The translations under genes were made by a program, and so were the position numbers. From Synechococcus lacustris (GTDB lineage Bacteria; Cyanobacteriota; Cyanobacteriia; PCC-6307; Cyanobiaceae), in assembly GCA_903943975.1 (NCBI GenBank), contig CAJAQB010000013.1, positions 248,001-312,000 on the forward strand: a stretch of 64,000 nt of DNA, read 5' to 3'. Positions 3,388-44,129 of this stretch are shown here, in pieces. The notes under the pieces are model-generated. The model ran no database searches and was not told where the DNA came from. It saw only the letters and a program-made list of their open reading frames with translations. Each line of letters opens with the position of its first letter. Position 1 is the stretch's first letter.

Positions 3388-4147
3388 TTTCCTTTCAGTT
3401 GCTGTGGAAGCTCCTGGCGAGTTTACAGAGGCTGTAGCTGAGGATAAATCACTTCTAAATGACTGCTGGAATCGCGTAGGCGTCTTTGGTGATAGGACTT
3501 GCCAGGAACTATTGCAATGCGTTCATTGTCGCAATTGCCAGGTTTATTCGGCGGCGGGCCGCAGCCTCTTAGAGCGGCTGCCCCCCAGCGACTATCTGCA
3601 GGAATGGACAGCCGTTCTTGCCGAGACTAAGCGCGGCGCTGAAAGCTCTACCCTCTCTGCCGATGGCACGGTGGTGCGAAGTGATCAATCCCTATCTGTG
3701 ATGATCTTTAGGCTTTCTTCTGAGCTATTCGCCCTGCCGGTTGGTGTGTTTCTTGAGGTTTCATCACCCTTTGTTGTTCACTCTGTGCCGAGACGTAGTA
3801 ACACACTTTTCTTGGGCATGGTGAACATCCGTGGCGAGATCATGCTGGCGGCGTCCCTAACTACCTTGCTTGGGCTTGCAACGACACGCGCTTTAGGTTC
3901 AAGTCATCAAGGGGTGGGCAGGATGGCAGTGGCAGGTACTCCCGCAGGCAAATGGGTTTTCCCAATTGACGAGATATATGGCATCTACCTCTTCAATCGA
4001 GACGATGTTAAATCACCGCCTGTGGTAATTAGTCATGCCGACGAATCATACACGCGGGGTGTATTCCAATGGCAGAATCGTTCGGTGGCACTGCTCGATC
4101 CTGATCGTATTTTTAGCGCCCTGACCACGGAGATATCCCCAAAATGA
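3374..4147 (+). CDS. CheW protein with Cys-rich N-terminal extension, WspD-like
   Basis: 257 residues. The N-terminal third is an extension containing CVHCRNCQVYSAAGRSLLER (Cys 49, 52 and 55), a motif I associate with WspD-type couplers; the rest is a CheW domain (LSVMIFRLSSELFALPVGV, then GMVNIRGEIMLAASL). It should link the receptor to the kinase. The Cys cluster could bind metal or respond to redox, which is inference. The start ATG lies inside the end of the receptor gene and the stop overlaps cheA as ATGA, so translation is probably coupled through the operon. Confidence 0.88.
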   Translation: MSLANFLSVAVEAPGEFTEAVAEDKSLLNDCWNRVGVFGDRTCQELLQCVHCRNCQVYSAAGRSLLERLPPSDYLQEWTAVLAETKRGAESSTLSADGTVVRSDQSLSVMIFRLSSELFALPVGVFLEVSSPFVVHSVPRRSNTLFLGMVNIRGEIMLAASLTTLLGLATTRALGSSHQGVGRMAVAGTPAGKWVFPIDEIYGIYLFNRDDVKSPPVVISHADESYTRGVFQWQNRSVALLDPDRIFSALTTEISPK

Positions 4148-6375
4148 GCGAGCCACTTCCCGAAGCCACGCCGCTTGAACTATTTCGTCTGGAACTGGAA
4201 GAGCGTATCGGCGGGCTAAATAGTTCGTTGTTGATTCTTGAGGCTGCGCCCAGCTCCCAGGAGGCCTTCGATCAGTTTATGCGTTCGGTCCACTCCGTGA
4301 AGGGTGCCGCCAGCATTGTGGTGCTGCAGCCCCTCGTGAGGGTGGCCCATGCCCTCGAGGATTACTTCGTAGGGGTGAAAAGTGGCAAGTTCATTCTGGA
4401 TTCCAATGCTGTTAGCCAGGCATTTCGCTGCATCGATCTGTTTCAAGACATCAGTCGCTTACCCTCCGATCAGATCCGTGAATGGTTGAGCGCCCGCTCA
4501 CCGGAATTAGATCAACTGCTGCAGTGCCTAGAGGATCTGATGCCTTCCGATGGCAGTACCCCTAGCTCCCCCCAGCCGCTGAGTTCAGCCACGGACCCCT
4601 CCTACCTGCGCAGTGCGGAGGAAGTTTTAGCGATGCCGGGGGCCAACGAACGAGTTGTTCGGGTGGAAGCAGATAATCTCAATCGCATCATGGCCCTCTC
4701 TGGCGAAATGCTGGTGGAGGCAAAGTGGTTGCAACCGTTTGCTGATTCTCTGAATCTGCTTAAGGATCGCCAAAAGGACTTGCAGGTGACAATTGAATCC
4801 CTGCGTCTACAGCTAAGCGAAGCAGGGCAGTCTTCCAGCCTTGAACTTGTAGAGCGGGCCAGACAGAAGGAAAAGGAGTGCCGCGACACTCTAAGTGAAC
4901 GACTGGGAGAACTGGAACTGTATGCCTTGCGCACAACAAATCTCTCCTATCGTTTGTATCGGGAGGTGATTGGTTCGAATATGCGTCCATTTTCTGATGC
5001 AATTGTTGCCTTTCCCCGCATGGTGCGCGATTTGGCCAGTGGCCTTGGCAAGCAGGTGCATTTAGAAGTAGTGGGTAAAGGCACATTGGTGGATCGCGAT
5101 ATTCTGCGCAAGCTTGAATCTCCTTTAACCCATATTCTGCGCAATGCCATCGACCATGGCATTGAGTTGCCAGCGCTGAGAGCTGATCAAGGTAAGTCGA
5201 GTGGCGGCACTATTCGCATGGAGGCCTTGCACAGGGGTGGCATGCTCTCTATCACCATCGCAGATGATGGCGCGGGTGTGCCCTATGACGAGGTAAGGCG
5301 CAAGTTGGTAGATGCTGGTTTGTTCAATTTTGATGAGGCCCAAGCCCTTTCTGAGGTTGAGCTATGTGAGCAACTTTTTCAGCCTGGTTTCTCAACTGCC
5401 AAATCGGTATCTGAACTTTCCGGCCGGGGGGTGGGATTGGATGCCGTGAGTGCCATGGCGAATGATGTTGGTGGCACAGTGCGTTTTTCATCGGTGCCAT
5501 CAGAAGGCACCAGCATTCATTTTCAGCTGCCTCTTACCCTTTCGGTTGTCCGTACCTTGTTGGTTGAAATTGCCGGTGAGCCCTATGCATTCCCGCTGGC
5601 CCGTCTCGATCAGATCCTATCGATTGAAGTTTCCGATATTAGTGTGATGGAAGGCAGGGAATGCTTCAATCTTGATGGGGTATCGATCGGGTTGATCTGG
5701 GCACGCCAAGTAATGAATTTTCCAGAGGCAAATAATCCGTCTTCAAGTATACCGGTGGTGGTTATTAGTGATCATGCCAAGGTATATGGTGTGGTGGTAG
5801 ATCGCTATTTAGGGGAACAGGATCTTGTGGTACGGCCCCTTGATCCTCGGCTTGGCAAGGTTGCAAATGTGAGCGCTGCCGCCCTTATGGGTGATGGCCA
5901 GCCGATTCTGATCGTGGATACAGTGGATCTTGTGCGTTCAATTGATGCACTCCTCCAGAGCTCGGAACTGCAGAGCCATGCCACTATTAAGCAACTGGTG
6001 GAAGGCAAGCGTATTTTAGTCGTAGATGATTCACCGGTAGCGCTTGAATTGCAGGCGAGGCTTGTCCTGTCGCGGGGCTACCGCGTTGATAAGGCCGTCG
6101 ATGGTGCGGAGGCTTGGCGCCTGCTCCGGGAGAATTGCTTTGATCTGATCGTTACAGATGTGGAAATGCCTGAGATGGATGGCATCACTTTGGTGAAAAC
6201 CATGCGTCTTGATCCAAAATTTGCCCAGCTCCCGATCATTATTTCCTCCTCAAGAGGTAGTGATAGTGATCGACTTCAGGGTTTAGAGGCCGGGGCAGAT
6301 TACTATCTGGTGAAAAGTAGTTTTCAAGATGATGCGCTACTTGATGCGATCCACCAGTTGATAGGTGCTGCTTGA
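4144..6375 (+). CDS. CheA-type hybrid kinase with C-terminal receiver, WspE-like
   Basis: 743 residues. Order: Hpt domain with phospho-accepting His50 in the motif HSVKGAAS; a linker and long helical dimerisation region (about 160-290); HATPase with N-box ILRNAIDHG near residue 331 and G-boxes DDGAGVP and GRGVGLDAV; a CheW-like P5 domain; and a receiver starting near residue 622 (KRILVVDDSPVALEL) with predicted phospho-Asp672 in LIVTDVEMPEMDG. Fusion of CheA with a receiver is characteristic of WspE and other alternative-function systems. It is coupled to the upstream cheW (ATGA) and the downstream cheB (TTGA). Confidence 0.95.
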   Translation: MSEPLPEATPLELFRLELEERIGGLNSSLLILEAAPSSQEAFDQFMRSVHSVKGAASIVVLQPLVRVAHALEDYFVGVKSGKFILDSNAVSQAFRCIDLFQDISRLPSDQIREWLSARSPELDQLLQCLEDLMPSDGSTPSSPQPLSSATDPSYLRSAEEVLAMPGANERVVRVEADNLNRIMALSGEMLVEAKWLQPFADSLNLLKDRQKDLQVTIESLRLQLSEAGQSSSLELVERARQKEKECRDTLSERLGELELYALRTTNLSYRLYREVIGSNMRPFSDAIVAFPRMVRDLASGLGKQVHLEVVGKGTLVDRDILRKLESPLTHILRNAIDHGIELPALRADQGKSSGGTIRMEALHRGGMLSITIADDGAGVPYDEVRRKLVDAGLFNFDEAQALSEVELCEQLFQPGFSTAKSVSELSGRGVGLDAVSAMANDVGGTVRFSSVPSEGTSIHFQLPLTLSVVRTLLVEIAGEPYAFPLARLDQILSIEVSDISVMEGRECFNLDGVSIGLIWARQVMNFPEANNPSSSIPVVVISDHAKVYGVVVDRYLGEQDLVVRPLDPRLGKVANVSAAALMGDGQPILIVDTVDLVRSIDALLQSSELQSHATIKQLVEGKRILVVDDSPVALELQARLVLSRGYRVDKAVDGAEAWRLLRENCFDLIVTDVEMPEMDGITLVKTMRLDPKFAQLPIIISSSRGSDSDRLQGLEAGADYYLVKSSFQDDALLDAIHQLIGAA

Positions 6376-16314: not shown

Positions 16315-16357
16315 GCGCCGGAGTTGGCCCATAGATTGGGTCGACTCCGGCGCTTTT
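16315..16357 (+). terminator. Strong hairpin with U tract between amt and ispH
   Basis: A 10-bp perfect stem (GCGCCGGAGT / ACTCCGGCGC, arms 16315-16324 and 16344-16353) encloses a further GGCCC/GGGTC inner stem and is followed by TTTT. A weaker 6-bp hairpin lies at 16285-16300. It should end the amt transcript, yet stops only 8 nt before the ispH ATG, so it would sit in any ispH leader. Confidence 0.75.
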
Positions 16358-37191: not shown

Positions 37192-37602
37192 TTAATGCTG
37201 GGCTTGTAACCAGTTTTCGTAGAGCAGCCCCTCCACTCGCTCGAATTCCCTTGGGTTGTTACTTACTAAGGTGAGACCTTCGCTGCGGGCATGGGCGGCT
37301 ATGTGAAGATCATTGACGCAGATGGGAGTGCCTTTTCGCTCTAAGGAGCTGCGGATTTGGCCATAGTGCTGGGCGGCCTTGGGGCCGTAGCTAAGCACCT
37401 CTAGGCGACTACAAAAGTTGTCCACCACGCAAAGGGTGCGCTTGGGGTCTGAACTTTTTTCGGCACCGTGGATTAACTCCGCCAGGGTAATCGAAGAAAT
37501 TCCCAGGTGGTTTGCACGGAGATTAAAGGTTTCAAGCAATGAAATGGGCCTCTGCTTGATTACATAAATGCAGATATTTGTATCGAGGAGATAGCGAAGC
37601 AT
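37192..37602 (-). CDS. vapC: VapC-type PIN-domain ribonuclease toxin
   Basis: 136 residues, normal VapC length. The PIN acidic residues are present: Asp7 in YLLDTNICIYVIK, Glu in SSITLAELIHGAEKS, Asp in CVNDLHIAAHA and the later LVSNNPREFERV. VapC toxins cut tRNA or rRNA and are held by VapB. It lies 9 bp downstream of the antitoxin frame in the normal antitoxin-toxin order. It is the first gene of the accessory island from the left. Confidence 0.93.
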   Translation of the reverse strand: MLRYLLDTNICIYVIKQRPISLLETFNLRANHLGISSITLAELIHGAEKSSDPKRTLCVVDNFCSRLEVLSYGPKAAQHYGQIRSSLERKGTPICVNDLHIAAHARSEGLTLVSNNPREFERVEGLLYENWLQAQH

Positions 37603-37930: not shown

Positions 37931-38125
37931 ATGGCAGTCTCCCCTCCAACTACAAAAACGCGGAGCGAAGGCTCAGGACAGCTGTCTCGAGAGCAAGTGG
38001 ACGCTCTCTTGCTGAAGCTGCGTGACCCCAGCCTTGCCCGCAAATTCTTGATGGACGCAGGCCTGATCGATGCTGACGGCCAGCTCAGCCCTCCATATCG
38101 CAGCCAGGATGCCCAAACGGCCTAA
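37931..38125 (+). CDS. Putative antitoxin of the ART-like module
   Basis: 64 residues from ATG at 37931. A disordered Ser/Thr-rich N-terminus precedes a compact helical segment, LSREQVDALLLKLRDPSLAR then KFLMDAGLIDADGQLSPPYR. Small proteins with this pattern precede ADP-ribosyltransferase-like genes elsewhere as far as I recall, so I infer an antitoxin or immunity role. It overlaps the downstream gene by 17 nt, which implies translational coupling. No DNA-binding motif is visible. Confidence 0.6.
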   Translation: MAVSPPTTKTRSEGSGQLSREQVDALLLKLRDPSLARKFLMDAGLIDADGQLSPPYRSQDAQTA

Positions 38126-38654
38126 GAACAGCCTTGGACCCCTGATTCTCTATCACGGCTGCGACAGGGAAATCGCCGAGACAGTGTTAAACGGTAATGA
38201 GACCCTCCAACCAAGCGAAAACGATTACGACTGGCTGGGACCGGGCATTTACTTTTGGGTTGATAGTCCAGATCGCGCACTCGATTGGGCAAAAGATCGC
38301 AAAAAGCGTCGCCCACAAGAGCTGGGAGATCCTTCTGTGCTGGGAGCCTTTGCGTATCCAGGGAACTGCCTCAATCTGACCGATTACGGGGTCATGGACG
38401 AGCTGGCGCTTGCGTACCGAGCCAAAGAAACACTCTTTAAAACAGCCAAGACCCCACTGCCGGTCAATTCAGATCGCAAAAATGGAATTTACCTGAAGCG
38501 ACAGCTTGACTGCGCTGTTATTCAGATGGTGCATGAACTGAGAAGAGATCAAGAAGAACCGCCTTACGACACCGTCTACGGCGTCTTTGAAGAAGGAAGC
38601 GAGGTCTATCCAGGATCCGGATTCAAGGCGATTCAGCAACCGCTAGCGGATTGA
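38109..38654 (+). CDS. ADP-ribosyltransferase-like toxin, C-terminus replaced
   Basis: 181 residues from ATG at 38109. The PARP/ART-like core is visible: LILYHGCDREIAETVL (the first conserved His-Gly), YDWLGPGIYFWVDSPDRALDW (the conserved Tyr region) and DTVYGVFEEGSEVYPGSGF (candidate acidic residue). It is probably an NAD-using enzyme. After SGF the reading frame enters antisense AbiE debris and stops within ten residues, whereas relatives I recall continue with a THIQI-type strand. So it is probably truncated and perhaps inactive. Confidence 0.65.
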   Translation: MPKRPKNSLGPLILYHGCDREIAETVLNGNETLQPSENDYDWLGPGIYFWVDSPDRALDWAKDRKKRRPQELGDPSVLGAFAYPGNCLNLTDYGVMDELALAYRAKETLFKTAKTPLPVNSDRKNGIYLKRQLDCAVIQMVHELRRDQEEPPYDTVYGVFEEGSEVYPGSGFKAIQQPLAD

Positions 38655-38867: not shown

Positions 38868-39974
38868 TCAGGGGCCTTCTGAGACCTGCAGGAACAAGGC
38901 CACTAAGGCCGTGTTGATGTAATAGTTGCTCCGACCAGACTTGTGTTTCTTAAGGAAACCTTTCTCCACCAACTGCTCCAAGTAGTCGGCGGCTGTCTGC
39001 CGGGTCACGCTCAGGTCATCCCGGACGAATTGAATCCTGGTGTAGGGATGGCGGAAGAGATTGTTCAGCAGATCCTGGGAGTAGAGCTTCGGGAGATCGG
39101 TGCGCATGCGCTGCTTCACATCTGCCATCTGCTTCCGGATTCCTTCCACCAGCGCAAGGGTCGTTCTGGAGGTCTTCTCGATGGCCTCAAGCATGTAGAG
39201 CACCCAGGCCTCCCAGTCGCCGTCTTCTCGCACAGATTGGAGCAGCCGGTAGTACTCAGCTTTGTGCTGGTTGATATGGCGACTGAGGTAGAGAATTGGA
39301 ATGTCCAGCAATCCTGTTTTGGTCAGGTAGAGAACGTTTAGGATGCGCCCGATTCGGCCGTTTCCATCGGCGAAGGGATGGATACTCTCGAACTGATGAT
39401 GGATGAGTGCCATCTTGATCAGCGGATCGAGTTGGCAGATCTCATCATCGTTGATGAACGCCTCCAGTGATGACATTGCGGTGATGATTTCGTTGCGGTC
39501 CTGTGGAGGCACGTAGATCACCTCCCCAGTCCTGTCGTTCATTAGGGCGGTGCCTGGCGTTGAGCGAAAACCATCGCTGCGTGCCTTCAGGAACCGGTAC
39601 ATGTCGATGAGCGTGGCGTTGCGAATCAACCCGCCCGTATCCAGCAGCTGCGTCAGCCCGAGCTTGATGGCGTCCCGGTAGCGAGCAACCTCCTTGGCTG
39701 CACCCGATTCAAGACCGTCCGGGAACAGGCCCAACTGGAACAACTCATCTTGGGTGGTGACGATGTTCTCGATTTCGGAACTGGCCTTGGCCTCCTGCAG
39801 GGCGAGGGTGTCGATCAGGATGCCTTGGTTGGGGATCGTGGCCGCCCGTCCCTTGAGCTCCGCCAAGGCGCGGTTGGCGGCGGCCAGAGCTCGCATGACC
39901 GCAACTGTTTCCAGCTCTAGCGCAGGAGGCAGCGGTTGCAGGAAGCCGCGGAAAGATGACACTTCGCTTGGCAC
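38868..39974 (-). CDS. Fic family AMP-transferase, class II (self-inhibited)
   Basis: 368 residues from GTG at 39974. The catalytic motif HPFADGNGRIGR is intact, and the N-terminal inhibitory helix carries the [ST]xxxE[GN] motif as SSEIEN within EAKASSEIENIV, which marks class II Fic enzymes with intramolecular inhibition. A winged-helix-like C-terminus follows (LSVTRQTAADYLEQLVEKGF). It transfers AMP or a related group to a hydroxyl side chain of a target protein, here unknown. It stands alone in the island with no separate antitoxin gene needed. Confidence 0.92.
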   Translation of the reverse strand: MPSEVSSFRGFLQPLPPALELETVAVMRALAAANRALAELKGRAATIPNQGILIDTLALQEAKASSEIENIVTTQDELFQLGLFPDGLESGAAKEVARYRDAIKLGLTQLLDTGGLIRNATLIDMYRFLKARSDGFRSTPGTALMNDRTGEVIYVPPQDRNEIITAMSSLEAFINDDEICQLDPLIKMALIHHQFESIHPFADGNGRIGRILNVLYLTKTGLLDIPILYLSRHINQHKAEYYRLLQSVREDGDWEAWVLYMLEAIEKTSRTTLALVEGIRKQMADVKQRMRTDLPKLYSQDLLNNLFRHPYTRIQFVRDDLSVTRQTAADYLEQLVEKGFLKKHKSGRSNYYINTALVALFLQVSEGP

Positions 39975-40230
39975 CAGTTAAGAAAACGCCATTTTGCTGA
40001 CGTGTTTTGACAATAGGTGGCCCCGGCGCCCTCCCTGCTGACAAGACGGCCGGCACAGGCCGCTTCCCGGCACGTCGGAATCATCACTGGCCATGCGCCT
40101 CAGCCGGCGCAGATCGCTTCTCCGTCCGAGAAGCTGTAGAGGCCAGGCTCAGCCACCAGGCCGTCGAAGGACCGCAGAAGCAGGCTCAAAGACACACTGG
40201 GCAACCTATCGCTCCTGCAGCCGCACAACT

Positions 40231-40283
40231 AAGCAATGCATCACTCTCTTTTGTAGGCAATGAACAAGAGTGATAGATTGCTT
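40231..40283. promoter_or_regulatory. Large inverted repeat upstream of mobile mystery protein A
   Basis: Two 17-bp arms (40231-40247 and 40267-40283) are complementary at 15 of 17 positions, with a 19-bp spacer. The repeat ends 38 bp before the start of the Xre-type gene. It resembles an autoregulatory operator. The rest of 39975-40321 shows no gene. Confidence 0.7.
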
Positions 40284-40321
40284 TTGATGCACCTTGTTGA
40301 GACGGATCACTCCCATCCGCC

Positions 40322-40783
40322 ATGAATGCCAAAGAGCTAAGGCTGGCCCAGATGGATGCCGTCCTGCAGGACGCAGCGAGTCATCCGCTGCCGCCGCGCC
40401 CGCCGGCGGGATGGCTGCGGGCCATCCGTGAGGCCCTGGGCATGACCTCCGCTGCCCTCGCGGCTCGCTTAGGGATCACAGCATCCGGAGTGCGAAAGCT
40501 GGAGCAGGCCGAGGCGACCGATGCCATCACCCTCGGCACCCTGCGGCGGGTGGCCGAGGCCCTCGACTGCGAGCTGCAGTACACCTTGGTGCCCAGGCGC
40601 CCGCTGCGGGAGATGAGAAGGCAACAGGCCCTGCACCTGGCGGAGCAGTGGCAGCAGCGCGCCAGCCGAACGATGGCGCTTGAGGCCCAGCCAGTTGCGT
40701 CTCCCTCTGCAGCGGCGAATGAGCGGCTTGAGGCCATGGCCCAGGAGATCCTCCACACCAGCGGCACCCGGCTGTGGAATTGA
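40322..40783 (+). CDS. Mobile mystery protein A (Xre-type regulator)
   Basis: 153 residues. A helix-turn-helix of Xre type occupies about 30-85 (WLRAIREALGMTSAALAARL, ITASGVRKLEQAEATDAITL), followed by LGTLRRVAEALDCELQYTLV, as in the mobile mystery protein A family. These regulators are always paired with a Fic protein, mobile mystery protein B. It overlaps that gene by 10 nt. It should repress its own promoter, probably through the inverted repeat just upstream, and may act as antitoxin. Confidence 0.88.
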   Translation: MNAKELRLAQMDAVLQDAASHPLPPRPPAGWLRAIREALGMTSAALAARLGITASGVRKLEQAEATDAITLGTLRRVAEALDCELQYTLVPRRPLREMRRQQALHLAEQWQQRASRTMALEAQPVASPSAAANERLEAMAQEILHTSGTRLWN

Positions 40784-41367
40784 ACGAGGACCTGCCGGCC
40801 GGGGCGACGCATCTCGATGGGGAGGATCTGGAGGGGCTGCTACCCAGCCATCTAGTGAATCGCAGCCAGCTGAACGAATGGGAGCAACAAAACATCGAGG
40901 CCGCCCTGCGCTGGCTCTCCCGCCAGCGCCGGCCCCGGCCGCTGGAAGAGAGCTGGCTACGGCGTCTGCATCGCGAAATGTTCGGCCAGAGCTGGCGCTG
41001 GGCCGGCCAGTACCGCAGCAGCGACAAGAGCATCGGTGCCGACTGGCGGCAGATCCGCATGCAGGTGCCGGCATTGCTGGCCGACATCGCCTTTCAGGTG
41101 GAGCACCAGGTGGAGCCGGTGGATCGAATCGCCATCCGTTTCCATCACCGGCTGGTTTCCATCCACCCCTTCCCTAATGGCAACGGCCGCCATGCACGCC
41201 TGATCGCTGATGTCTTGATCGAGCAGCTGGGGGCACCTCGCTTCTCCTGGGGAGGCAGCAGCTCCCTGGTCGATACCTCAGGCCTGCGCCAGCAATACTT
41301 CGCCGCTCTCCAGCAGGCCGACCGAGGCGACTTAGGCGCCCTGCTCACCTTTGCGCGAGCGAGCTGA
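40774..41367 (+). CDS. Mobile mystery protein B (Fic-domain protein)
   Basis: 197 residues from GTG at 40774 inside the end of the partner gene. The Fic motif HPFPNGNGRHAR is intact; LHREMFGQSWRWAGQYR is also conserved. No [ST]xxxE[GN] inhibitory motif was seen in its N-terminal region, so control would fall to protein A or to expression. Members are found on mobile elements across bacteria. It is the second Fic protein within 2.5 kb, and differs clearly in size and sequence from the class II protein at 38.9 kb. Confidence 0.9.
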   Translation: MELNEDLPAGATHLDGEDLEGLLPSHLVNRSQLNEWEQQNIEAALRWLSRQRRPRPLEESWLRRLHREMFGQSWRWAGQYRSSDKSIGADWRQIRMQVPALLADIAFQVEHQVEPVDRIAIRFHHRLVSIHPFPNGNGRHARLIADVLIEQLGAPRFSWGGSSSLVDTSGLRQQYFAALQQADRGDLGALLTFARAS

Positions 41368-42460: not shown

Positions 42461-43075
42461 ATGGCAGTACTGAGCGCGCAGATCCTGGAAGCCGCGGGCA
42501 AGCGCCCGGAAGGATTCCTGCTGGCTGCCAAGCAGTTCCTGGCGCTGGGCAACCGCGCTGCGGTGGACCAGGCCCTGCGGCGCCTGGCCGCTCGCGGCAG
42601 GCTCGTGAAAATCACTCGCGGCCGCTACGCCCTGCCCATCACCAGTCGCTTTGGCATCAGGCCTCCGGCGCCGGAGATGGTGATCGCCCAGCTCAATCAC
42701 GAGGGTGCTCAGCAGCTGGTGAGCAGCGGTGCCGCCGCGGCCAATGCCCTTGGCCTCACCACCCAGATGCCTGTACAGCTGACCTTCCTGGCTCGCACCC
42801 GGAGCCAGAAGCGCTACGTCTTTGGCAAGCAGCAGGTCACGATCCGCCCGGCAGCCGCCTGGAATTTCCTGCTGCCCGATCGCCCCGCCGGTCAGGCGAT
42901 CCGGGCACTCACCTGGCTTGGCCCGGATCAGGCCTCAGCGGCACTGCCGACGCTCTGCCGTGTGCTGCCGCCGGTGGAATGGGATGCCCTGCTCGCTGTT
43001 CGCGCCGAGCTGCCCCTGTGGCTGGCAGAGCTGCTGAGCGTGCAGGCGCTGGAGCCGCAGAAGGCTCATGGCTGA
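42461..43075 (+). CDS. AbiEi/DUF6088-type antitoxin
   Basis: 204 residues. An N-terminal winged helix (QALRRLAARGRLVKITRGRY) is followed by a C-terminal domain with NALGLTTQMPVQLTFLA and the strand RTRSQKRYVFGKQQVTIRPA, the layout of AbiEi-type transcriptional repressors. In type IV systems the antitoxin counters the toxin indirectly rather than by binding it. It overlaps the toxin gene by 8 nt. A perfect inverted repeat precedes it. Confidence 0.87.
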   Translation: MAVLSAQILEAAGKRPEGFLLAAKQFLALGNRAAVDQALRRLAARGRLVKITRGRYALPITSRFGIRPPAPEMVIAQLNHEGAQQLVSSGAAAANALGLTTQMPVQLTFLARTRSQKRYVFGKQQVTIRPAAAWNFLLPDRPAGQAIRALTWLGPDQASAALPTLCRVLPPVEWDALLAVRAELPLWLAELLSVQALEPQKAHG

Positions 43076-44129
43076 GTCCTGGTTCGCGCTTTCCCCGGAG
43101 GACCAGAAGGAAGCCCTGGCGGTCGCTGCTGCCGAATCCGGCTGGCCGGCGAACCTGCTGGAGAAGGACATCTGGGTGGTCTGGGCGCTGCAGACCCTGG
43201 GGTCAGAGCAGCAGTTACTGGAGACCCTCACCTTCAAGGGGGGCACCTCACTTTCGAAGGCCTATGGGCTGATCGATCGCTTCTCGGAAGACGTCGATCT
43301 CACCCTCAACATCCAGCACCTCTGGCCTGAGGTTGACCTCTCACCAGCAGTCAATCCCAGCCAGGCGGACAAGCGCCGCAAAGCCGCAGATAGAAAACTC
43401 AAACAGTGGGTCCGGGAGATCCCCCTGCCACTGCTCCAGGCTGCTGCCGCTGGCGCCGGTGTAACCCTCGAGTTGGATGTGGAGCAGCCAGAAGCAGGCC
43501 GGCGGGAGCCACCCACAATCGTCATCCACTACCAACCGCTGACCCCGGCGGCAGACAACAGCTCCGGTTATGTGGGGCCGACGGTGTGGCTGGAGTTCGG
43601 CGCCCACTCCACCGGTGAACCGCATGGGCCGATGCCCATCTCATGCGAAGCGGCGACCCATCTGGCCATGCTCGAATTCCCGGCCGCCAGGCCACTGGTG
43701 ATGGATGCTAGGCGCACCTTCCTGGAGAAGGCCGCGGCCATCCATGTCGCCTGCCGGAAGGGCCGATGGGGCAGCGGCGAGAGTGCTCGCTATTCACGAC
43801 ACTGGTACGACCTTGATCGCCTGGCTAGTGCAGGTATCGCGGAGCAGGCTTTCCGTGACCGGCCCCTCGCCGTGGAGGTGGCACAGCACAAAGAAGACTT
43901 CTGGCGTGCCACGGATACCGATGAGCAGCCGATCAATTACCTCCGCGCCCTCAGTGGCAACCTGCAGCTGGTGCCGATCGACGCTGCCCGACAGGCCCTG
44001 GAATCGGATTTCCAGGCCATGACCGACTCGGGGATGCTGCGCGGTGAGATCCCGAGTTTTGATGAGCTGTTGGCCCGGATCAGCCAGCTAGAGGAGCGGT
44101 GCAATGCCATCGCTCGATCCATCACCTAA
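43068..44129 (+). CDS. AbiEii/AbiGii-type nucleotidyltransferase toxin
   Basis: 353 residues. The nucleotidyltransferase signature FKGGTSLSKAYGLIDRFSED then VDLTL is intact (GGTSxSK and the two catalytic acids in SEDVDL). Characterised members, such as AbiEii and MenT, add nucleotides to tRNA acceptor ends or other targets. Full length and no frameshift. The stop overlaps by 3 nt a convergent remnant of another AbiEii gene, which is notable. Confidence 0.9.
   Translation: MAESWFALSPEDQKEALAVAAAESGWPANLLEKDIWVVWALQTLGSEQQLLETLTFKGGTSLSKAYGLIDRFSEDVDLTLNIQHLWPEVDLSPAVNPSQADKRRKAADRKLKQWVREIPLPLLQAAAAGAGVTLELDVEQPEAGRREPPTIVIHYQPLTPAADNSSGYVGPTVWLEFGAHSTGEPHGPMPISCEAATHLAMLEFPAARPLVMDARRTFLEKAAAIHVACRKGRWGSGESARYSRHWYDLDRLASAGIAEQAFRDRPLAVEVAQHKEDFWRATDTDEQPINYLRALSGNLQLVPIDAARQALESDFQAMTDSGMLRGEIPSFDELLARISQLEERCNAIARSIT

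Follow-up and report, generated by a model that had tools for sequence, protein, structure and literature searches.

Known Fic enzymes are kept in check by an inhibitory helix carrying the motif (S/T)xxxE(G/N), which comes from a partner protein in class I and from the enzyme's own chain in classes II and III (PMC3667792; PMC5033356). In EcFicA the motif, SRRLEG, forms the end of the first helix, where S24 and E28 contact R146 (PMC5033356), and the same contacts as in EcFicA are described for AntF and Fic-1 (PMC13327609). That DNA binding and Fic activity can be linked, as we also propose for the gene pair described below, is known from CccR and CbFic2, but both are single proteins, and CccR belongs to class II (PMC9755527; PMC10628234). 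Outside the Fic pairs, hipBA and other Xre-type toxin-antitoxin operons are comparable, in that the helix-turn-helix (HTH) of our protein A is nearest to HipB in fold, though weakly, and solved HipB complexes have titles that mention several operators; unlike in hipBA, the toxin here is a Fic-fold protein, and the period of the operator is shared by different phyla even though its letters are not. Phd-Doc likewise combines a Fido-fold toxin with a DNA-binding antitoxin, yet Doc is a kinase and the DNA-binding fold of Phd is a different one.

The mobile mystery proteins A and B (A and B hereafter) are described by the profiles TIGR02612 and TIGR02613, whose names call them hypothetical equivalogs and give no mechanism. 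In a 2013 paper, a TIGR02612 member next to a Fic gene was called an antitoxin (PMC3936711), TIGR02613 was placed under Fic/Doc in a survey of transposon cargo (PMC8649781) and 22 Fic_Doc-xre pairs were counted in a 2009 survey (PMC2701414). Since the pairing has already been proposed in these studies, the toxin-antitoxin idea for A and B is not new. An assignment of the motif in the tail of A and the 33-bp array reported below were not found in the accessible literature, mostly outside subscription journals, on mobile mystery proteins or on Fic antitoxins with DNA binding.

We have analysed a stretch of 64,000 nucleotides from Synechococcus lacustris (the window), lying on contig 13 of a 2.47-Mb genome, in which an earlier note had taken an Xre/Fic gene pair for mobile mystery A/B. 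This identification holds by score and by gene order, as A reaches 134.2 bits against TIGR02612 (curated cut-off 122.6) and B, directly downstream, 224.7 bits against TIGR02613 (curated cut-off 124.4); the start codon of B is GTG, and the two genes share 10 nt where A ends (Table 1). The AlphaFold2 model of A (mean pLDDT 93.7) matched HTH proteins only, and weakly (E 0.04 and up), with HipB on top, and a search of solved structures with the A profile returned two distant HTH proteins. B consists of a Fic domain (PF02661; model pLDDT 90.4); human FICD is the closest by E-value among the matches listed, and VbhT (3zcb_A) is the top one by TM-score among the best 50 matches listed (0.72/0.76). 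A adjoins B in 80 of 80 loci of our genome scan, where the closest loci are from Synechococcus or other cyanobacteria (L044-L047), and B is present at 14 of 15 new over-cut-off A loci in a held-out sample of Pseudomonadota; in the DNA examined, a full B is absent at L014, L019 and L021 and a full A at L141 and L172. The cassette is patchy, being over the cut-off in 15 of 399 genomes of the order, the present genome included, and 256 plasmid records have a B-like match, 234 of them over most of B. Our preferred reading, to which we give a probability of roughly two in three, is that A and B make up a Fic toxin-antitoxin module resembling class I, with an antitoxin that doubles as a repressor.

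Table 1. Coordinates of the features in and around the A/B locus, in positions of the window
Feature	Position	Strand	Remarks
VapC	37192-37602	-	neighbour of A/B
194-aa protein	38070-38654	+	weak match only, PADLOC model PD-T4-9_A
SoFic-like Fic gene	38868-39974	-	divergent from A
Candidate operator box 1, GCAACCTATCGCTCCT	40201..40216		-121; 2 mismatches; at -120 to -124 in 11/17 relatives
Inverted-repeat left arm	40231..40247		15/17 complementary to 40267-40283
Candidate operator box 2, GCAATGCATCACTCTC	40233..40248		-89; 4 mismatches; at -88 to -91 in 16/17 relatives
Candidate operator box 3, AAGAGTGATAGATTGC	40266..40281		-56; 3 mismatches; at -55 to -58 in 17/17 relatives
Inverted-repeat right arm	40267..40283		15/17 paired with left arm; 19-nt spacer
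Candidate operator box 4, GAGACGGATCACTCCC	40299..40314		-23; 3 mismatches; at -23 to -25 in 17/17 relatives
Mobile mystery protein A	40322..40783	+	153 aa; Xre-type HTH and C-terminal antitoxin-like tail
HTH domain of A, aa 32-87	40415..40582	+	HTH_3, 42.2 bits
Proposed inhibitory motif TMALEAQ (A, aa 117-123)	40670..40690	+	end of long helix
Mobile mystery protein B	40774..41367	+	197 aa; Fic-fold enzyme without own inhibitory motif
Active-site motif of B, HPFPNGNGRHAR	41164..41199	+	N135 at usual D/E place; R142 = proposed partner of A-E121
AbiEi/AbiEii	42461-44129	+	neighbours of A/B

The earlier note had reported a 17-bp inverted repeat with 15 of 17 matching positions just before A and had suggested an operator there. 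The repeat is present exactly where it was said to be, although a repeat finder at default settings had missed it because its longest exact match is 8 nt against a seed of 9; the arms were then measured directly. Taken alone, the repeat is unusual rather than impossible, as 20 dinucleotide shuffles of the 64-kb window contained 0.65 such repeats (spacer 4-40) on average. One other 17-bp inverted repeat, paired at 15 of 17 positions around a 5-nt spacer, lies near 16315 of the window. The doubt is removed by conservation in relatives and by the array score: the arms are two of the four 16-bp candidate boxes, those at -89 and -56, both of which occur in 16 of 17 cyanobacterial relatives (at most 4 mismatches to one of three consensus boxes), and none of 100 shuffles of the same sequence reached the score of the 33-bp array in the window. 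The consensus boxes scanned for were GCAACCTATCACTCCC, the reverse complement of GCAACCTATCACTCCC, and GGGAGTGATCACTCCC, positions were counted from the start of A, and two of the 17 relatives (L018 and L047) are identical across the boxes. The four boxes follow each other in steps of 32, 33 and 33, ending 7 nt before the start codon of A, and at up to 4 mismatches ten relatives have four boxes and seven have three. In the organism's own genome, one box at up to 3 mismatches was found at 25 sites (5 in the control, the pattern read backwards), and the only two sites close together are those at the A/B locus. A scan for a sigma-70-like promoter, the one type covered, found none at the array, and no terminator-like site was found there on the + strand.

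The array extends well beyond the cyanobacteria. From 105 A genes, 102 upstream regions were usable, and in the 70 kept at less than 60% mutual identity 33 bp was the best of 44 lags by a first measure (z 31.9, 20 dinucleotide shuffles) and the best of 59 lags by two simpler measures (30 shuffles), with z of 26.9 for base identity and 32.5 for palindrome centres, or 26.4 and 36.9 after removal of the seven cyanobacterial rows. The controls were flat at this lag, both in the region from -400 to -251 (z 0.8 and -1.1) and at the coding starts (-1.0 and 1.1). In 13 held-out Pseudomonadota loci lag 33 was again the best (z 9.0 and 9.6), lag 32 being a close second by palindrome centres (9.1). Locus by locus, the array score was reached by at most one of 100 own shuffles in 63 of the 70 regions and in 12 of the 13 held-out ones, so that an array of this kind precedes A in most homologues tested; L041, L090, L101, L102, L116 and the held-out L125 did not fall below six of 100. 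When chains of 18-bp boxes were counted in 86 upstream regions, 18 had two boxes, 45 three, 18 four, one five and four no chain, these four being L090 and three A-like genes without B (L138, L143, L144). The longest chain in the set, five boxes in 32-bp steps, lies upstream of A in L126. Among seven non-redundant viral loci, assessed by base identity alone, the top lag was 33 or 66 in four and 32 in two, and in one a lag of 58 tied with 33 and 32. The box letters vary from clade to clade while the 33-bp period is kept, and the operator suggestion of the earlier note is supported in a refined form: within the cyanobacterial group the same repeat recurs upstream of the homologues, whereas the wider family keeps the array and not the letters.

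Such a repeat could instead be the end of a mobile element or a terminator hairpin, and the patchy occurrence of the cassette together with its frequency on plasmids would suit such a reading. Yet several copies recur at a constant period and in a set position relative to the start of A, upstream of most A genes, there is no terminator-like site on the + strand, and the box letters track the recognition helix of A, so this explanation was dropped with hardly any weight left to it. In a type II toxin-antitoxin operon the antitoxin or the complex would bind operators at the promoter; what was observed upstream of A is a conserved 33-bp array of operator-like boxes. Over 77 array loci, box similarity correlated with the identity of the recognition helix (r 0.445) about as it did with the identity of the rest of A (0.439); with the latter held constant, the partial r was 0.260, reached in 0 of 1000 permutations, a procedure that removes shared ancestry only partly. 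From this modest effect, the boxes are probably read by A.

Turning to the control of the enzyme, the earlier note had described B as lacking the usual Fic inhibitory motif and A as its likely control. The strict (S/T)xxxE(G/N) is absent from the B of the window, anywhere in the chain, while the same search on the neighbouring SoFic-like Fic gene returned SSEIEN, and in the alignment of B the strict motif occurs in at most 3 of 48 rows at any one column. The statement about B is hence confirmed, the motif search having revealed no inhibitory helix, and B lacks an inhibitory motif of its own, like the toxins of class I, rather than having an N-terminal one in the same chain, as in class II. A class II motif hidden in the N-terminus, which would make a brake by A unnecessary, might be sought in a relaxed [ST]xxxE at the column of aa 28 (26 of 48 rows) or in the SQLNEW that the B of the window has at aa 31. 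The G/N does not come next, however, the relaxed form is absent at the aa 28 column in the window, and the position is at the start of helix 30-49 in the model of B; we regard such a motif as very improbable.

It is in the C-terminal tail of A that a motif of the inhibitory type is found. Among 127 distinct A proteins scoring at least 100 bits (those below, among them L002, L141, L143, L144 and L179-L181, were left out of the pooled counts), xMxLExQ is present in 126, the exception being the truncated A of L021. The first residue is T in 81, S in 40, H in 3, and M and L in one each (S/T in 121), and the sixth is D in 49, A in 45, N in 13, Q in 6, G in 4, E and K in 3 each, and S, M and R in one each. 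The strict G/N at the sixth place is therefore met with in 17 of 126 motifs, and with Ala there the A of the window does not carry the strict motif of a class I partner. A separate sample of Pseudomonadota had the motif at 16 of 16 over-cut-off A loci (L139 being L065 again), with G or N at the canonical sixth place in 6 of 16. In the model of A the helix 95-119 ends with aa 117-119 and the loop 120-129 starts with aa 120-123, so that by DSSP Glu121 is just beyond the helix end, in a block (121-130) of lower confidence (pLDDT 79). On the side of B, R139 and R142 are kept in 48 of 48 rows, R142 being the arginine that matches the EcFicA contact. In L142, A reads HMALEKQ and B HCFANGNGHHAR, the first arginine being lost together with the S/T. 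In L138 a canonical-looking TMALEGQ is found in A, but B is not adjacent and the 33-bp chain is absent.

The absence of the motif from B and its near-invariance in A suggest a direct mechanism at the active site and not transcriptional control only, and support the role that the earlier note had assigned to A. A few conserved residues alone cannot prove homology to the known inhibitory helix. A Pfam scan of A (E up to 0.001) gave HTH families only and no antitoxin family, so that A is not assigned to VbhA/FicA. In 200 Pseudomonadota genomes the VbhA family was matched at 8 places, and a motif search confined to short reading frames showed an antitoxin-like motif at three loci only (L157 TTQIEG, L159 THAIEG and L162 THAIEG). 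It could be argued that A is a repressor only, with the operon under transcriptional control and the tail serving as an element of dimerisation or stability; in favour of this are the clear HTH of A and its conserved array, the lack of the canonical G/N in the motif of the window, a tail that matches no known Fic antitoxin by profile or fold, and CccR as a Fic toxin linked to autorepression (PMC9755527). On the other hand, the tail keeps its M, L, E and Q almost without exception although A is otherwise mostly variable, an S/T placed four residues ahead of an invariant Glu where a helix ends corresponds to the known inhibitory pattern, and the two A-type HTH proteins without B that were looked at (L143 and L144) both lack the tail, and we consider a purely repressing A unlikely. 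These two proteins (L143:1159-1761, - strand; L144:1462-2067, + strand) have the A-type HTH fused to another domain, which we take, from its motif, to be nucleotidyltransferase-like. A distant phage-borne B (36% identity) is found on viral contigs near 3489-4600 (L179-L181, three loci with identical scores), and its HTH partner, at 29 bits against A, still has TxxLE in its tail (TQGLES). This modularity, with the tail missing from the former and TxxLE kept in the latter, supports the tail of A as the proposed brake on B; L138, which has the motif but no B nearby, speaks against it.

With regard to the chemistry of B, HPFPNGNGRHAR departs from the canonical HxFx(D/E)GNGRxxR, having Asn at the D/E place, as do 124 of 125 distinct B proteins (122 by pattern, L015 and L096 by eye); the remaining one, L141, is a fragment without the motif. 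L002, L014, L019, L155, L161, L162 and L179-L181, at less than 150 bits, were left out of these pooled counts. Since H, F and NGNG of the Fic motif were required of every hit in the genome scan for B, their presence in the loci of that scan is no evidence; among B proteins reached via A or by tblastn, Asn was found in 12 of 12 from the order (L015 by eye), 8 of 8 from plasmids and 16 of 16 from Pseudomonadota. In canonical Fic AMPylators magnesium is bound by the D/E, and AMPylation is lost in Fic-1 E139A (PMC13327609); together with the near-universal Asn, this would favour a B that is no AMP transferase, whether it performs another chemistry through N135 or is an inactive Fic fold acting as corepressor only. 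CccR, however, with the motif HPFGNGNGRTVR, likewise has Asn at this place and AMPylates FtsZ (PMC9755527), and both arginines, needless in an inactive protein, are kept in all 48 rows, so that we hold this reading to be somewhat unlikely. The notion that N135 excludes AMPylation was dropped for the same reason, that CccR has Asn and yet AMPylates. Since Fic-1 E139A is inactive but CccR with its Asn is active, AMP transfer by B is likely rather than certain, judged by these analogies.

Compared with FicTA, VbhTA and Fic-1-AntF, the A/B pair has in common the small upstream gene, the Fic fold, the second arginine (R2) kept in the toxin, and a partner motif at a helix end with the S/T-Glu spacing of SRRLEG in EcFicA. 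Unlike in these systems, A carries an Xre-type HTH and mostly [ST]MxLE[ADN]Q in its tail and has no match to a Pfam antitoxin family, and B has Asn at the D/E place. Strict class I membership thus fails on two letters, the Ala at place six of the motif and the Asn in the Fic motif. As far as sequence can tell, A/B works like a class I Fic pair, which is more specific than what the earlier note had thought. In the module that we propose, the Xre-type HTH of A would bind the phased palindromic boxes, of which there are four in the window at 32-33 bp, and repress the operon, while B would be a Fic nucleotidyltransferase without a brake of its own. Glu121 of A, in TMALEAQ at the end of the C-terminal helix, would enter the active site of B, pair with Arg142 (R2) and block productive ATP binding. 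Loss of A would then free B and open the promoter at once, and free B, which would transfer AMP or a related group to a cellular target, would be toxic. Against this module speak the minority of G/N at the sixth place, the restriction of Pfam matches to HTH families, the position of Glu121 past the helix, the Asn in B, and L138 without B, to which are added the 5 of 70 and 1 of 13 loci without an array beyond the 5/100 level, the model of A with its weak matches to HTH proteins only, and the lack of a sigma-70-like promoter at the array.

Perhaps the two activities of A are coupled even more closely. By analogy, A:B could be a DNA-gated Fic switch, in which A dimers, spaced by 33 bp, keep B lined up on the promoter and the Glu of A makes B de-modifying; the bound form with N135 may then be mainly a de-modifier. 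AntF is described as turning Fic-1 from modifying to de-modifying (PMC13327609), and the idea is somewhat like the effect of DNA binding in CbFic2 (PMC10628234). We regard such a switch as a speculative and rather improbable possibility; if it were true, transcription and the direction in which the enzyme works would both be governed by the occupancy of the promoter.

The A/B pair is located among other defence or toxin-antitoxin genes, between 37192 and 44129 of the window, one of which is SoFic-like, and Sofic is described as an anti-phage protein (PMC12249575). B itself matches three models of PDC-S04, a PADLOC candidate for Fic-type defence, at E below 1e-8 (best 4.1e-23). A second, degraded A/B copy (L002) was observed in the same genome on contig 19, near 219555-220260, where A is broken, B has lost its middle part and shows HPFPNSN, and upstream there is still a box-like GAGTGATAACTCCT.

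The name of the mobile mystery pair, which many plasmids and chromosomes carry, is itself an admission of ignorance. If the module proposed here is true, repression and inhibition of an active site would be joined in one protein. Moreover, with the 33-bp spacing kept and the letters changing, the arrays of this family would offer a natural series for the co-evolution of a repressor and its sites.
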